The notes under the pieces were generated by a model that was not told the origin of the DNA, searched no databases, and saw nothing but the letters and a program-made list of their open reading frames with translations. This document shows positions 12,354-21,658 of a DNA stretch of 52,722 nt, one piece after another; position 1 is the first letter of the stretch, and each line of letters starts with the position of its first letter. The stretch comes from an uncultured Rhodobiaceae bacterium (GTDB lineage: Bacteria > Pseudomonadota > Alphaproteobacteria > Parvibaculales > Parvibaculaceae). The stretch is from positions 1 to 52,722 of the forward strand of contig CAJXOU010000015.1 of assembly GCA_913057645.1 (NCBI GenBank), read 5' to 3'. Position numbers and translations under genes: made by a program.

Positions 12354-13862
12354 ATGGCCCAGCAACCGGTGGGACTTACTGCCTATGGCGGATACATTCC
12401 GCGCCTGAGGCTTCAGCGGAAATCCGTGGTTCAGGCGAATGCCTGGGTGGCGCCCAACTTCCTCGGCAAGGGGAAGGGCGAGCGCTCCATGGCGAACTGG
12501 GACGAGGACGCGGTGACGATGGCCGTCGAGGCCGCCCGTGACCTGCTCGGGCCGGAAGACGACCGCAGTCATGTGGACGCACTTTTCTTCGGCTCCACGA
12601 CCATGCCGTTCAAGGATCGCCTCAACAGCGGCATCGTCTCGGCAGCCTTGACGCTCGACGAGAATGTCCGCGCCGTGGACGTCGCCTCGACACAGCGCGC
12701 GGGCACGAGCGCGCTCCTGCAGGCGCTGTCGGCCGTGAAGGCCGGCGAGGCGAAACATGCCCTCGTCCTCGCCTCCGATCACCGCAAGACGAAGGCGGTG
12801 ACCGCGCAGGAACTCGACTTTGGCGATGGCGCGGCGGCCCTTTCCGTGGGTACGGAGAATGTGATCGCGACCTATCTCGGCGGCGCGAGCCTCACGGTCG
12901 ATTTCGTGGACCATTTCCGTGGCGATACGGAAGAGTTCGACTACAACTGGGAAGAGCGCTGGATCCGCGATGAAGGCTTCGCGAAAATCATTCCTCGTGC
13001 GGTCAAGGCAGCACTTGAGAATTCCGGTGTAAGTGCCGAAGAAATCAGACACTTCGTCCTTCCGTGCAGTTTCGGCATGAAGTTCGTGCAGCAACTTGCG
13101 AAACGCTCGGGCATCGACCCGGATGCGGCGCGGGATACACTTGCCGCCAATTGCGGTGAGACCGGCGCAGCCCATTCGCTCGTCATGCTCATTCACACGC
13201 TCCAGACGGAAGCGAAGCCCGGCGACAAGGTGCTCGCCCTTCAGTTCGGCGGTGGCTGCGACGCGCTCGTCTTCGAGGTAACGGACAAACTCGCAAGCCA
13301 GGCGGGCAAGCGCGGCATCGTGGGTTCGCTCAAGGATCGGATGGAGGAGACGAACTACATGAAGTTCCTCACCTTCAACGGTCTGATCGAGTGGGAAAAG
13401 GGCATGCGGGCCGAACAGGACAAGAAGACCGCGCTCACCACGCTCTACCGCAACGAGGACATGCTGATGGGTCTTGTGGGCGGCCGCTGCAGGGAAACGG
13501 GCGTCGTCCAGTTCCCGCGCTCGCGGATTTCGGTCAACCCGAACAACCACACGGTCGACACGCAGGAGCCCTACAAGTTCGCCGAGAAGAAGGCGAAGAT
13601 CCTCTCATGGTCGGCCGATTTCCTTTCCTTCAGCATGAACCCGCCGAACCATTACGGCATGGTGGTGTTCGACGAAGGCGGCCGGATCATGATGGACTTC
13701 ACGGATGTGGAGACGGGTACGGTCGACTCCGGCATGGAAGTGAAGCTCGTCTTCCGCATAAAGGAATTCGACGACAAGCGCGGTTTCCGCCGCTATTTCT
13801 GGAAGGCGGTTCCGATCGCTTCCAGCGCAGCAAAAACACAACCGGGCCAGGCGGCCGAATAG
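12354..13862 (+). CDS. HMG-CoA synthase-like condensing enzyme fused to a DUF35 OB-fold
   Basis: A 502-residue protein with a thiolase-superfamily domain related to archaeal HMG-CoA synthase (about 1-330). A DUF35-type OB-fold follows (about 375-495: VVQFPRSRIS, FSMNPPNHYGMVVF, DFTDVETG). By eye, TQRAGTSALL aligns with the archaeal C-K-A-G-T-A-A active-site motif. Gln114 then occupies the catalytic Cys position. The usual HQPNGKF segment reads PCSFGMKF (237-244), so the general-base His is also absent. NCGETGAA (266-273) and GDGAAAL (157-163) are kept. The zinc-ribbon cysteines normally in front of DUF35 are mostly missing (GGRCRETG). It is therefore probably not a standard synthase. It may decarboxylate, bind or hand over acyl-CoA to the adjacent thiolase-like protein 12 bases downstream. 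Confidence 0.8.
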   Translation: MAQQPVGLTAYGGYIPRLRLQRKSVVQANAWVAPNFLGKGKGERSMANWDEDAVTMAVEAARDLLGPEDDRSHVDALFFGSTTMPFKDRLNSGIVSAALTLDENVRAVDVASTQRAGTSALLQALSAVKAGEAKHALVLASDHRKTKAVTAQELDFGDGAAALSVGTENVIATYLGGASLTVDFVDHFRGDTEEFDYNWEERWIRDEGFAKIIPRAVKAALENSGVSAEEIRHFVLPCSFGMKFVQQLAKRSGIDPDAARDTLAANCGETGAAHSLVMLIHTLQTEAKPGDKVLALQFGGGCDALVFEVTDKLASQAGKRGIVGSLKDRMEETNYMKFLTFNGLIEWEKGMRAEQDKKTALTTLYRNEDMLMGLVGGRCRETGVVQFPRSRISVNPNNHTVDTQEPYKFAEKKAKILSWSADFLSFSMNPPNHYGMVVFDEGGRIMMDFTDVETGTVDSGMEVKLVFRIKEFDDKRGFRRYFWKAVPIASSAAKTQPGQAAE

Positions 13863-13874
13863 GGAGAAACGGAC

Positions 13875-15077
13875 ATGGCGGCAGGTATCAAGGACAAGGT
13901 CGCGATCCTCGGCATGGGGTGTTCCAAGTTCGGCGAACGCTGGGACGCCGGCCCCGAGGAGCTCATGGTCGAGGCCTATCTCGAGGCGATGCAGGACGCG
14001 GGCATCGAGCCCACACAGCTCGATGCAGCGTGGTTCTCCACACATATCGACGAAATCGGCACGGGCAAGGGCGGCACTCCGTTGTCGCTGGCGCTTCGCC
14101 TGCCGAACATCGCGGTGACGCGCGTGGAGAACTTCTGCGCCTCGGGCTCGGAAGCGCTACGCGGTGCGGTCTATGCGGTGGCCTCCGGCGCGGCCGACAT
14201 CGCGCTTGCGGTCGGTGTCGAGAAGCTCAAGGACACGGGGTATGGCGGTCTCCCCGTCGGCAACATGGGCACGCTCAACCCGCAATGGTCACCCTCGGGC
14301 TCCGCTCCCGGCAACTTCGCACAGCTCGCCTCCGCATACCGGGCAAAGCACGGCGTGAACAAGGAAGACCTGAAGCGCGCCATTGCCCATGTCTCTGTGA
14401 AGAGCCATGCGAACGGCGCCAAGAACCCCAAGGCGCATCTGCGTAACGAAGTGACCGAGGAACAGGTCATGGCCGCGCCGATGATCGCGGAACCGCTCGG
14501 CCTGTTCGATTGCTGCGGCGTGTCGGACGGTGCGGCGGCGGCCATCGTTACGACGCCGGAAATCGCGAAGGCAATGGGCAAAAAGGACATCGTGACCGTC
14601 AAGGCGATGCAGCTTTCGGTCTCGAACGGTCTCGAAAGCCAGCACAACAGCTGGGACGGCAGCTACTTCCACACGGCCCGCATCGCCGCGAAGAAGGCCT
14701 ACAAGGAAGCGGGCATCGACAATCCACGCGAGCAGGTCAGCATGATCGAGGTGCATGACTGCTTCTCGATCACCGAGCTCGTGACCATGGAAGACATCTT
14801 CATATCGCCCGAAGGGGGCGCAGTGAAGGACGTCATGGACGGCTTCTACGATGCCGACGGCAAGGTTCCCTGCCAGATCGACGGCGGACTCAAATGCTTC
14901 GGCCATCCGATCGGCGCGTCCGGCTTGCGCATGGCCTACGAGATGTATCTCCAGCTTCAGGGCCGCGCAGGCGAGCGCCAGCTTGCCAATCCAAAGATAG
15001 GCATGACCCACAATCTGGGGGGCGCGCCGTCCCAGAATGTCTGTTCCGTGACCATCGTCGGCGCCCACGGCGTCTGA
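13875..15077 (+). CDS. Thiolase-family protein (SCP2-thiolase type)
   Basis: A 400-residue member of the SCP2/acetyl-CoA acetyltransferase branch of thiolases, which cleave or form beta-ketoacyl-CoA. The nucleophilic Cys is C88 in NFCASGSEAL. The conserved HDCFSITEL and CFGHPIGASGLRM motifs carry the catalytic His and second Cys, so the active site looks complete. The ATG follows AGGGAGAAACGGAC, with the start 12 bases after the HMG-CoA-synthase-like gene. The two are surely coexpressed. In steroid and lipid degradation, SCP2-like aldolases or thiolases are known to work with DUF35 proteins (for example Ltp2 with ChsH2). A complex of this protein with its upstream DUF35 partner is a reasonable inference. 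A strong terminator follows. Confidence 0.9.
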   Translation: MAAGIKDKVAILGMGCSKFGERWDAGPEELMVEAYLEAMQDAGIEPTQLDAAWFSTHIDEIGTGKGGTPLSLALRLPNIAVTRVENFCASGSEALRGAVYAVASGAADIALAVGVEKLKDTGYGGLPVGNMGTLNPQWSPSGSAPGNFAQLASAYRAKHGVNKEDLKRAIAHVSVKSHANGAKNPKAHLRNEVTEEQVMAAPMIAEPLGLFDCCGVSDGAAAAIVTTPEIAKAMGKKDIVTVKAMQLSVSNGLESQHNSWDGSYFHTARIAAKKAYKEAGIDNPREQVSMIEVHDCFSITELVTMEDIFISPEGGAVKDVMDGFYDADGKVPCQIDGGLKCFGHPIGASGLRMAYEMYLQLQGRAGERQLANPKIGMTHNLGGAPSQNVCSVTIVGAHGV

Positions 15078-18405: not shown

Positions 18406-19218
18406 TCAGCGCTTGTTGATGTCCTCGCCGCCATCGAGGAATGCCTGCATTGCATCGACAGCATCGTCATCGCAAGAGATCAATACACTGAAACGTCCGC
18501 GCGCATGCCCACACGCGTCGTCGAGCGACTTGTCCACGCTCCGTTTGACGAGAGCTTTCGCCTCGGCGATCCCGGCCGCGGGCATCGCTGCAAGCTCTGC
18601 GGCGATCTCCCTGGCGCGCTCGAGTGCCGGACCTGTCGTCACCTCGTGAACCATGCCGAGTTCCTTTGCCTCATTTGGCCCCACGGTTCGTCCGCGCAGG
18701 ATCAGCTCAAGCGCTCTTGCTTCACCGATCAGACGGGGCAGGCGTTCCGTTCCGCCCGCGCCCGGGAAGATCCCGATATTCGTTTCGGGCAGGCCTAATC
18801 GGTAGTCACTCTTTTCTGCAATCCGGATGTCGCAACAGAGCGCAAATTCGAACCCGCCGCCTTGAGCAAAACCGTTGATGGCCGCGATGGTCGGCTTCGA
18901 CATACGGTCAACCTTGTCGAACACCGCTGAAATCGCGTTCCCGCGCTCGCCTGCCGCCATCATCTGCTCTTCCGTGCTACCGCTCTCCTTGATCTGAGCG
19001 GCAACAGCGACAATCTCGGCGACATCGTAGTGACGGATAAAGACACCTGGTACGCCGCCGGTAAATATCACCGCACGCACCGCTTCATCGTCTGCCAGGC
19101 GGTCGACGATCACACGAAGTTCCGCTACCTGCGCTGCGTTCATGTAGCCGCGCGGCGGGTTGTTGAAAGTCACGATGGCGATTGCGTCGGCGGTTTCGAC
19201 GCTGACGAGATCGTTCAT
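18406..19218 (-). CDS. Enoyl-CoA hydratase/isomerase family protein
   Basis: A 270-residue crotonase-fold enzyme that normally adds water to 2-enoyl-CoA in beta-oxidation. The oxyanion-hole and active-site regions are visible: AAINGFAQGGGFEFALCCD with the first Glu, and GLPETNIGIFPGAGGTERLPRLIG with the second. Both catalytic Glu positions of true hydratases are kept. The start is ATG 19218 (MNDLVSVE). It overlaps the stop of the upstream DUF6285-like gene as ATGA, showing translational coupling. The longer frame to 19365 is an artefact. It is the fourth gene of a tight operon and probably processes the enoyl-CoA formed by the pathway that uses the APH-type kinase. Confidence 0.9.
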   Translation of the reverse strand: MNDLVSVETADAIAIVTFNNPPRGYMNAAQVAELRVIVDRLADDEAVRAVIFTGGVPGVFIRHYDVAEIVAVAAQIKESGSTEEQMMAAGERGNAISAVFDKVDRMSKPTIAAINGFAQGGGFEFALCCDIRIAEKSDYRLGLPETNIGIFPGAGGTERLPRLIGEARALELILRGRTVGPNEAKELGMVHEVTTGPALERAREIAAELAAMPAAGIAEAKALVKRSVDKSLDDACGHARGRFSVLISCDDDAVDAMQAFLDGGEDINKR

Positions 19219-19601
19219 TTGCCTTGCCCGCTTTCTTCGAGCGCGCGCCGGTAGCCTGAATATTTGGGCTGGTCGATGGCGACCTTGGTAAGTGTCGTCT
19301 CCCAGAGGTGGTCCTTGAGGCCGGGCGTGTCGAGCGTCAGTTCGCCTTTTTCGATCCTGACGCAAAGCTCCCGGTTCAATTCCTCCATCGTCCCGTCCCT
19401 GGCGAGGAGAGCCCTGAGCCGCGCCAGCTCTCCAGCGGCGGCCTCCGGGCCGATCTCCATTTCGCGCTTTACGATGTCCAGCGCATTCGCCGCCACCCGG
19501 GCATGAAACGCGGCATGGCCCTGCAACTGCGGCATGGCGTGATTGCGAATGAACTCGGTTACGGCTTCCACGAGTTCGATGGCGGAAGGCTGATCCTGCA
19601 T
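19215..19601 (-). CDS. Small DUF6285-like protein, partner of the APH-type kinase
   Basis: A 128-residue helical, charged protein without signal or membrane segment (LVEAVTEFIRNHAMPQL, FHARVAANALDIVKREM, a C-terminal PKYSGYRRALE). From memory it fits DUF6285, a family found beside APH-type phosphotransferases of acyl-CoA pathways. In the levulinate operon of Pseudomonas putida the kinase LvaA needs the small protein LvaB, and this pair has the same size ratio and order. The family link is my inference and needs a profile search. It starts four bases after the kinase stop and ends overlapping the hydratase start. Confidence 0.7.
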   Translation of the reverse strand: MQDQPSAIELVEAVTEFIRNHAMPQLQGHAAFHARVAANALDIVKREMEIGPEAAAGELARLRALLARDGTMEELNRELCVRIEKGELTLDTPGLKDHLWETTLTKVAIDQPKYSGYRRALEESGQGK

Positions 19602-19605
19602 GGTG

Positions 19606-20622
19606 TCACTCCGTCCCTTTGAGCGGTGCGAGAAGGCGCATCAAATCGACCTCAGTCTCTGAAGAGCGTCGTCCGATCGTTGCCCGTTCGACCGATCGAT
19701 CGCCCTGCAGGAAGGCCGATGCCATTCCCATGCACATGACGCCCCATTTGAGCGTACCGAGAACTTCCCAGAACTTGACGCGGGCCGGATCGACCTTGTC
19801 GCCACCTCCCGCTTCATAGCCCTCAAAGAGGTCTTCCCGGGTACCGAAACCACCGACCGGCATGTCGATATTGCCAAATCGCCAGGGGTTGATGCAGATC
19901 CAGGAGAGATCGGCCATTGGATCGCCGACATGTGCGATCTCCCAGTCCAGAACAGCGCGCAAACCGTCTGGGCCGATCATGAGATTACCGTTGCGGAAAT
20001 CCCCATGCACCAGGGTCAGCTCCGCCGTGTCGGGCGGCGCATTGTCCCTCAGCCAGCGGAACGCCAGTTCGAACACGGGATGAGGGTAGTCGAGCTGCTT
20101 GTAGGTCTGGAAATACTGCTCGACCTCATCTTTGCCGGTGGCAACGCGCAGCTGCGGCAGCGTCGCCTTGTCGATCTTGTGGAGCCGCGCGATGACTTCC
20201 CCGCATTGCCGGGCAAGCTTCGGGCGTGCTTCCGCAAACTCCTCGTCGCGAAGAATCTTCCTGGCGAGCGTTTCACCGGGGATACGATCCATGACGAAAC
20301 CTTGCCCGATGCCATCTTCCTCGGTCAGCACGTGCCGTACGGGCGGAACGGGTACGCCGGCCGCCCCGGCGAGCCTGATCAGTTCGGCCTCGGTTTCGAG
20401 GGCCACCGCCGTTCCCGACCGCCCGGTATCGCGTACACCGCCTGGTGCGCGCCTGAGAATGAGCGGCACGGCGCCGTCACTGGTCGTCGCATCGAAGGAC
20501 CATATCTCCTGGCTCGCGCCGCCAGAAAGCCGTTTCAGCCCGGCGATTCCCGTCGCGCCGTCGATATGTTTGCGCGCCACCTCGGCGAGCGGCGCTGCGA
20601 TCGGATTTGCCTCCGCACCCAT
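19606..20622 (-). CDS. APH-family phosphotransferase (LvaA/ACAD10-type kinase)
   Basis: A 338-residue kinase-fold protein. LVHGDFRNGNLMIG gives the catalytic HxDxxxxN and VLDWEIAHVGDPMADLSW the metal-binding D-W-E motif of the ACAD10/11-like subgroup, not of antibiotic-resistance enzymes. Members of this subgroup are known to phosphorylate the hydroxyl of 4-hydroxyacyl-CoA, for example LvaA in levulinate catabolism and the kinase domains of ACAD10/11. Start ATG 20622 lies one base after the stop of the upstream AttH-like gene. The longer frame would overlap it. The gene order (kinase, small protein, hydratase) supports acyl-CoA metabolism. The acyl-CoA dehydrogenase partner of that pathway is not in the window. 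Confidence 0.85.
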   Translation of the reverse strand: MGAEANPIAAPLAEVARKHIDGATGIAGLKRLSGGASQEIWSFDATTSDGAVPLILRRAPGGVRDTGRSGTAVALETEAELIRLAGAAGVPVPPVRHVLTEEDGIGQGFVMDRIPGETLARKILRDEEFAEARPKLARQCGEVIARLHKIDKATLPQLRVATGKDEVEQYFQTYKQLDYPHPVFELAFRWLRDNAPPDTAELTLVHGDFRNGNLMIGPDGLRAVLDWEIAHVGDPMADLSWICINPWRFGNIDMPVGGFGTREDLFEGYEAGGGDKVDPARVKFWEVLGTLKWGVMCMGMASAFLQGDRSVERATIGRRSSETEVDLMRLLAPLKGTE

Positions 20623-20623
20623 T

Positions 20624-21658
20624 TCAGTGCCCCGCGCCGACCGGCCTGCCATCGACGATCTGGTCGAGATATTCCGAAAGGCCGTATCCCGTCATACCGT
20701 TGCAGCGATACTCGGTCATGCCTTCGGTAATGCGGGTGTTGAGCTCCTGACCATCTGCATCCTTGCGCCGGTTGCGAAGTGGGATCAGCGACATCACGCG
20801 ACCCTCGACATCGTAAGCCTCGCCTGATTCCGTTTCGACATGCGCGCGCAGCGCGGTCTGGTACCAGTTCTCGTCCCAGTCGCTGTCGATCCGGCAGCTC
20901 TTGATGAGGTCATACTTGCCGTCCTTCAGCACCATGCCGCCCTGGCGCTGCTGGCCTTCGGCATTCGTCACAATGGAAATCATCATGCCGAAGTCGCGGC
21001 CGAAGTTCATCGGCAGCCACCGGTACCAGTGGATCGCCTGCCAATAGCGCGGGCCCCAGCTCTTGTCGCGAAGGCCGAAACCCTCGACCTCGAATGTCTC
21101 GTCGCCGATCTTGAAACGGCCCTTCGCGGCCATGTGCTGTTCGTAGTGCGCCTTGGCGAACGATTTCTCTGGATCGATGTCAAGCGCCGAGCCGTCTTCC
21201 TTCACCGTCTCTCCGCCAAACATCGGCGACACACCCTCATAGTCGAGTTCGACCTCGCAGGGTACGACCGGGTTCTCCTTGAAGGCGCGCGCCGGGTCCG
21301 ACATGTCAAACGGTTGTGCGAGCACGACCACCTTGCCGGAATAGGTCAGCCGAAGTCGCTTGAAGGGTTCGATCACCTCGATCTTCATGCCGCCGGCATT
21401 CATCTCGTCGTTGTTTTCGATCTTGGGACGGCCATACATGAAAGCGACACGCCCATCGGGCAGATAGAGGCAGACCGACATTTCCGCCTGGCCCTCGTTC
21501 GGCCGGTTGCCGAGCCGGAACCAGCCGCCGGTCTTGCGCTCCGGGTCGAACATGTTGAAATACATGCTCTCGTTATAATTCGACGCCTTGTCAGGCGAGT
21601 GGGTGTATTCGTCTTCCGGCAGTAACCGGACCTTGAAGCCGGACGGAGCGTTCGCCAT
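20624..21658 (-). CDS. AttH/CrtC-like lipocalin-fold protein of unknown substrate
   Basis: A 344-residue soluble, beta-rich protein without signal peptide. WFRLGNRPNEGQAEM near the start, a central GFGLRDKSWGPRYW motif and RWLPMNFGRDFGMM resemble the duplicated lipocalin-like barrels of the AttH/CrtC (hydroxyneurosporene synthase-like) superfamily. These are found in CoA and steroid catabolic operons as DUF7064/7065-like proteins (family name from memory). No enzymatic residues can be assigned safely. The ATG at 21658 is preceded by AGGGAGAATCGGC. It is the first gene of a four-gene operon, one base from the kinase gene. It is probably a hydrophobic-ligand binding protein or hydratase acting on the same substrate. 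Confidence 0.7.
   Translation of the reverse strand: MANAPSGFKVRLLPEDEYTHSPDKASNYNESMYFNMFDPERKTGGWFRLGNRPNEGQAEMSVCLYLPDGRVAFMYGRPKIENNDEMNAGGMKIEVIEPFKRLRLTYSGKVVVLAQPFDMSDPARAFKENPVVPCEVELDYEGVSPMFGGETVKEDGSALDIDPEKSFAKAHYEQHMAAKGRFKIGDETFEVEGFGLRDKSWGPRYWQAIHWYRWLPMNFGRDFGMMISIVTNAEGQQRQGGMVLKDGKYDLIKSCRIDSDWDENWYQTALRAHVETESGEAYDVEGRVMSLIPLRNRRKDADGQELNTRITEGMTEYRCNGMTGYGLSEYLDQIVDGRPVGAGH

Follow-up and report, generated by a model that had tools for sequence, protein, structure and literature searches.

An HMG-CoA synthase-like/DUF35 fusion protein as a probable non-catalytic partner of the SCP2-type thiolase encoded beside it

Results

The fusion gene, its domains and its predicted fold

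We analysed a stretch of 52,722 nucleotides (the window) from an uncultured Rhodobiaceae bacterium. On its forward strand an open reading frame at positions 12354 to 13862 encodes a protein of 502 amino acids (P0001), and 12 bases after its stop codon begins the gene of a 400-residue thiolase (P0002; 13875 to 15077, same strand). In P0001 the Pfam families ACP_syn_III_C and OB_ChsH2_C score above their cut-offs and ACP_syn_III slightly under. A domain of the HMG-CoA synthase (HMGS) fold is placed at about residues 5 to 329 (12366 to 13340) by phmmer alignments, the predicted model and fold comparison, and the OB-fold part of a DUF35 domain at about residues 403 to 488 (13560 to 13817) by Pfam and the predicted model. 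Between them lie a linker and a degenerate zinc ribbon. The NCBIfam equivalog models for archaeal HMGS match the first 335 to 345 residues of P0001 and none of them reaches its cut-off (NF003274 182.5 of 244 bits; TIGR00748 125.5 of 353 bits). Genes of this family carry annotations as HMG-CoA synthase, ketoacyl synthase III C-terminal domain protein or OB-fold protein.

The AlphaFold2 model of P0001, calculated with 66 aligned sequences, has a mean pLDDT of 92.1 and a pTM of 0.92. When compared with known structures by VIA-align, the predicted model shows the HMGS fold: its top match is the HMGS of Methanothermococcus (6esq_I; Z 45.5, 2.1 A over 336 residues), followed by CsATase A (Z 44.8), PhlA (44.0-44.1) and MucA (42.8-42.9), while canonical HMGS and FabH rank below at Z 39 and less. 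The leading families of a Foldseek search with the same model agree with this order. PhlA, CsATase A and MucA, at Z 43-45 to the predicted model, are like P0001 in having an HMGS fold without the Cys.

The Parvibaculum-type genome to which the window belongs (3.75 Mb, 99.99% complete) holds a single copy of the fusion gene, the other match listed being a distant one with 28% identity over residues 40-302. The closest named records are a Rhodobiaceae MAG (L098) and a Parvibaculum (L099), both 91% identical, and P. sedimenti (L101) with 87%.

The former catalytic positions of the HMGS-like domain

The codon at 12693-12695 (CAG), within DVASTQRAGTSALL, encodes Gln114. In the phmmer alignment of P0001 with 6esq_I this residue lies opposite the catalytic Cys, which is Cys114 by our own residue count. 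The same alignment sets Thr82 (12597-12599) opposite the catalytic Glu82 of the GSES motif and Pro237 (13062-13064) opposite the catalytic His of the HQPNGK motif. The residue pairing is taken from the sequence alignments, as the structure superposition came without a per-residue map. None of the three residues looked for as marks of an archaeal-type HMGS, the catalytic Cys at column 114, Glu82 and the HQPNGK His, is thus present in P0001, and judged from these alignments the HMGS-like domain is without the known catalytic residues. The first-pass annotation had read both a Gln at the nucleophile site and a lost catalytic His from the letters, and both readings are borne out here. Cys114 and Glu82 are described as key residues of archaeal HMGS in the cited passages of PMC6392133, which report both to be missing in PhlA, so that PhlA and P0001 agree in lacking the two. 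The residue found at column 114 in the phmmer alignments differs between these proteins: it is Gly in PhlA and CsATase, Glu in MucA and Gln in P0001.

We compared these positions in 138 relatives, obtained by thinning 175 sequences at 95% identity. The set was built from matches of at least 90 bits and leaves aside the window's own copy (L001) and a wrongly extended frame (L097). Thr82 is found in 128 of the 138 rows and Pro237 in 131. Column 114 is more varied, with Q in 98 rows, L in 23, M and R in 5 each, P in 3, T in 2, and N and S in one each; Cys is never found. At 71%, Gln remains the most frequent residue; 40 of the relatives have another one. The 96 rows of the first collection gave Q 71, L 13, M 4, R 4, P 3 and S 1. 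Plasmid records supplied 16 mostly more distant members, in which we found Q and T four times each, L and A twice each, P, R and G once each, one gap and no Cys.

A tree built without column 114 places 23 changes at this column, at least 20 of them between Q and another residue; the total is close to the median of all columns (24) and of columns 1-340 (27). The trees used here are quick LG+G4 trees which came with long-branch warnings.

These observations bear on the first-pass proposal that the Gln makes P0001 an acyl-CoA decarboxylase comparable to KSQ domains. Such an enzyme would decarboxylate malonyl-type or beta-keto-acyl-CoA and so feed or drain the thiolase. The proposal has in its favour that a Gln sits at the nucleophile column, where it is the majority residue, and that structures of E. 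coli FabH C112Q are on record (9ka5, 9ka6). Free variation of this position among relatives had been named beforehand as the finding that would tell against it, and free variation is what the survey of 138 relatives found, with a column rate near the median and L, M, R, P, T, N or S in place of Q. In addition, a decarboxylase of this superfamily would be expected to keep the His and Asn residues of the active site, and KSQ domains keep their His. In contrast, the HMGS His column of the P0001 family is almost always Pro, and at position 269, where HMGS has its Asn, 127 of the 138 relatives carry Glu or Asp. We have rejected the decarboxylase on the free variation of column 114 together with the lost catalytic His, and regard it as highly improbable. 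More generally, a single Gln is poor ground for inferring a decarboxylase of the KSQ type. Gln114 is present in each extracted member of the window's genus and family (L003-L023), and it could have a lineage-specific role there.

A different Cys acting as substitute nucleophile was also considered. Of the Cys residues checked in the HMGS-like domain, none is conserved enough in the 138 rows to stand in for Cys114 (C238 in 48, C267 in 54 and C302 in 75), and we dropped this candidate.

Conserved polar residues, linker and zinc ribbon

Several polar residues of the HMGS-like domain are better conserved. D109 is kept in 136 of the 138 rows, and the tree shows no more than two changes at R144 or at D183. 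His274 (13173-13175) is found in 128 rows and is not common to PhlA or archaeal HMGS in the pairwise phmmer alignments. It may be asked whether the domain carries out some other chemistry through such residues (for example D109, R144, D183 and H274), for which their conservation and the restriction of H274 to the P0001 family would speak. D109, D183, D186 and R189 are identical residues in the active archaeal HMGS and in the dead PhlA in the phmmer alignments, however, which argues for a role in the fold or an interface, and no conserved new nucleophile is seen in the domain. We therefore consider other chemistry by this subunit very unlikely.

The linker (residues 330-372; 13341-13469) has Y335, G350, R352, E354 and R366 conserved. 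By analogy with PhlACB it is probably the interface with the thiolase: the cited passages of PMC6392133 describe the cavities of PhlA and PhlC as contiguous and the N-terminal tail of PhlB as buried between A and C.

The degenerate zinc ribbon of the DUF35 part (13470-13559) keeps Cys379 and, according to the alignment, has T382, S393 and N398 at the other Cys positions. This agrees with the first-pass observation of a fused DUF35 domain without a full zinc ribbon, yet 86 of the 138 relatives have a complete set of four Cys. Loss of three of them defines one clade of 46 rows; 4 more rows are also without C379, and 2 rows are unfused. The clade of 46 and the group of four correspond to 2 changes on the tree. 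Loss of the zinc ribbon as a hallmark of the family is ruled out by the 86 rows with four Cys. Cys379 itself (13488-13490) shows no change in any row having the position, including those of the zinc-less clade.

The adjacent thiolase

P0002 passes the cut-off of the NCBIfam model PRK06157 with 717.9 bits (cut-off 403), and sequence comparison likewise points to an SCP2-type thiolase. We aligned 111 thiolases, thinned at 97% identity from 152 sequences of more than 300 bits and more than 370 residues. The nucleophile Cys88 (14136-14138), His294 and Cys296 of the HDCF motif (14754-14762) and His344 of the GHP motif (14904-14906) are each present in all 111 rows, with no change. As in SCP2 thiolases, we take Cys88 to form the acyl-enzyme, and Cys296, His294 and His344 to be the acid/base and oxyanion residues. 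The coupling of the fusion gene to an intact SCP2-type thiolase, which had been claimed from the first reading, is confirmed by the short gap and by the presence of these four residues.

The thiolase is better conserved than its HMGS-like partner. In relatives whose HMGS-like protein is 34-54% identical to that of the window, the thiolase is 64-77% identical. Because the thiolase residues show no change while column 114 varies, we conclude that selection fixes the thiolase site and lets the old HMGS nucleophile site drift.

Among solved structures the archaeal acetoacetyl-CoA thiolase of 6esq is the second-closest relative of P0002 (6esq_A, E 1e-54). The sequence matches to PhlC (5m3k_C, 4e-17; 9skh_I, 7e-19) are far weaker. 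A further possibility is a retro-aldolase of the Sal or Ltp2 type working with a DUF35 partner, since DUF35-bound aldolases of the thiolase fold act on steroid CoA esters according to the cited part of PMC12329534. The same source gives CtSal a Gly for the nucleophilic thiolase Cys and a YDCY motif, while Cys88 and HDCF are invariant here, and we hold out scarcely any prospect for an aldolase.

Pairing of the two genes across genomes

In a survey of 385 genomes from the class, the 64 that carry the strong HMGS-like protein are also the 64 that carry the thiolase. The HMGS-like search (E up to 1e-15) gave 68 genomes and the thiolase search (E up to 1e-120) gave 64, with the best candidates, at most four, scored per genome in both. 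In the four additional genomes (G139, G244, G333 and G410) the HMGS-like matches are weak, at 28-32% identity, and the thiolase search at E up to 1e-120 found nothing, so the agreement of 64 with 64 applies to the strong HMGS-like family. Four of the 64 (G117, G231, G323 and G390) have an extra thiolase without a listed HMGS-like match beside it, and in one genome (G388) the two genes are found on separate contigs.

We also examined the 173 loci with matches of more than 200 bits (L095-L097 left out), a set drawn from two collections, with near-duplicate records for some species. The thiolase lies downstream on the same strand in 162 of them and within 300 bases in 140, at a median distance of 47. 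Ten of the 11 loci without a downstream thiolase had less than 2 kb left to read; the last one (L126) had 8 kb without a thiolase. The pairing is not absolute, because of this locus and the four genomes with an extra lone thiolase.

Outside the strong family, two loci (L095 and L096) encode short unfused HMGS-like proteins of about 28-30% identity with Pro at the site, and a 33%-identical thiolase upstream. One record is titled Candidatus Kuenenia stuttgartiensis (L150); its protein groups with those of L044 and L070, and the title may be wrong.

Genomic neighbourhood

For 27 of 37 fusion-protein loci we compared the neighbouring genes with control stretches of the same contigs at a distance of 70-80 kb; the other 10 loci were given no control. 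Seven families were counted as core beta-oxidation families: acyl-CoA dehydrogenase, enoyl-CoA hydratase, CoA ligase, MaoC, CaiB, 3-hydroxyacyl-CoA dehydrogenase and HpcH. At least one of them is found at 20 of 27 loci and in 5 of 27 controls (Fisher p 9e-5), a comparison biased in favour of the loci by seed families that were chosen from recurrent neighbours of the tested and named loci. An SDR neighbour is present at 20 of 27 loci and in one of 27 controls. When all 37 loci of the tested kind are taken, 26 have a core family.

Among the named loci with full flanks the proportion is lower, with a core family in only 16 of 40, and within range of the five named Parvibaculum-group loci it is one in five. 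In the window, the sole beta-oxidation-type gene in the 5-6.5 kb around the fusion gene is an enoyl-CoA hydratase on the opposite strand, 3.3 kb past the thiolase. In Parvibaculum the gene pair therefore stands largely alone. The hydratase of the window stands in a row with an APH-type phosphotransferase and a DUF7064/DUF7065 protein (18409-21658, reverse strand), some 3.3 kb beyond the thiolase gene. The APH neighbour is recurrent across the five Parvibaculum-group loci.

Plasmid records show several catabolic contexts. The pair is found with ring-hydroxylating dioxygenases and beta-oxidation genes in Variovorax SRS16, Rhodococcus qingshengii and Rhodococcus opacus, and with MaoC, CoA ester lyase and acyl-CoA dehydrogenase in Sphingopyxis, Sphingobium and Diaphorobacter. 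The Novosphingobium US6-1 locus has SDRs and none of the core beta-oxidation families. In Novosphingobium ES2-1 (L180) the pair is flanked by an SDR on one side and enoyl-CoA hydratases on the other, with a P450, VOC proteins and an indolepyruvate ferredoxin oxidoreductase nearby.

Discussion

We suggest that P0001 is a fused, non-catalytic scaffold of the degradative thiolase encoded beside it, comparable to PhlA, and we consider this explanation likely. A catalytically dead subunit of the HMGS fold, fused to a DUF35/OB domain, would hold the neighbouring thiolase and would probably line part of its cavity for CoA and substrate. The two proteins would then form one complex with the layout of the archaeal HMGS/DUF35/thiolase complex and of PhlACB, in which the counterparts of PhlA and PhlB are fused. 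The covalent chemistry would be left to the thiolase alone, with Cys88 carrying the acyl group and Cys296, His294 and His344 assisting. The reaction would be the CoA-dependent cleavage of a beta-ketoacyl-CoA in a catabolism resembling beta-oxidation. Gln114 would be a common filler of a dead nucleophile elbow, with no catalytic duty. Besides the decarboxylase, the first-pass annotation had offered a non-catalytic acyl carrier for the thiolase. The non-catalytic partner in this proposal comes close to the explanation that we favour, whereas nothing indicates an acyl carrier.

If such genes are read as dead scaffolds, a false reaction can be removed from pathway models. The scaffold also predicts that thiolase activity needs co-expression of the two genes. 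A comparable dependence has been described for PhlACB, where activity depends on expression of the complete operon and the substrate is contacted by PhlC residues only, according to the cited passages of PMC6392133. In CsATase the change of Cys88 to Ser (C88S) in the C subunit abolishes formylation, as given in the cited part of PMC12955522.

The A subunits of the PhlA type and P0001 are both partnered with DUF35 and a catalytic subunit of the thiolase fold, here a fused DUF35 and an adjacent thiolase gene. In PhlACB the DUF35 protein is separate, whereas in P0001 the A and B parts form one chain, so that there are not three subunits. This likeness raises the question whether the pair could instead be an acyltransferase or deacylase like PhlACB, which would not be a thiolase at all and would transfer acyl groups onto or off carbon independently of CoA. 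The PhlA-type subunits are indeed among the nearest structures and the three domains are held in common. But the partner of P0001 is a thiolase by sequence: it clears the PRK06157 cut-off by a wide margin and is far nearer to the archaeal acetoacetyl-CoA thiolase and other thiolases than to PhlC. Furthermore, the neighbours in relatives are often enzymes of CoA-ester catabolism. An acyltransferase or deacylase seems unlikely to us for these reasons.

The complex of archaeal HMGS, DUF35 protein and acetoacetyl-CoA thiolase (6esq, 6et9) likewise has the three domains and the fold in common with the P0001 pair. The archaeal HMGS keeps Cys114, Glu82 and the His, in contrast to P0001 with its Gln, Thr and Pro and its scores under the NCBIfam cut-offs. 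Compared with the known complexes of this kind, the P0001 pair is marked by its fused chain, by a thiolase as partner and by a clade that has lost the zinc ribbon. A thiolase-fold catalyst held by a DUF35 domain, as proposed here, is also known from the benzoylsuccinyl-CoA thiolase BbsAB, from Sal/Shy and from Ltp2/ChsH2. The cited part of PMC12329534 describes no HMGS-like subunit for these systems, and Sal and Ltp2 are given there as aldolases. Among the papers listed in our literature searches, read as titles and the openings of abstracts, we found none that describes the fused protein and the thiolase as a complex.

The nearest mention in those searches is a remark on the edc cluster in the cited part of PMC7793797. 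Its authors list an 'HMG-CoA synthase' (EGO55_13555), give it no pathway step, find that a condensing enzyme would be senseless there and guess at a thiolase activity. We liken this gene to the family by its description and gene order. The ES2-1 locus resembles the edc estrogen operons of that paper in gene order and, like the window, has an HMGS-like/OB fusion beside a PRK06157 thiolase (415 bits, cut-off 403). The ES2-1 protein differs from that of the window in being about 32% identical and in having Leu at position 114.

This leads to a more speculative idea, which we regard as possible but rather doubtful. The cavity of the dead HMGS domain might serve as a second chamber, which would accommodate the arm of CoA or the bulky acyl portion of a ring-derived beta-ketoacyl-CoA (of estrogen, aromatic or terpenoid-like origin) during cleavage by the thiolase. 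If this were true, the pair would represent a widespread class of two-chamber degradative thiolases, the 'HMG-CoA synthase' of estrogen degradation would be explained, and the zinc-free clade, which includes Parvibaculum, would be a later simplification.

Other arrangements of these domains were also seen. The fused HMGS-like proteins of two haloarchaeal loci (L186 and L187) have Thr at the site, a thiolase upstream and two UbiD-type decarboxylase genes close by. On a Priestia plasmid (L191, 3992-6770) an unfused HMGS-like protein with Gly at the site, a thiolase and a zinc-ribbon gene lie beside a condensation-domain/NRPS cluster, an arrangement reminiscent of the three-gene acyltransferases.
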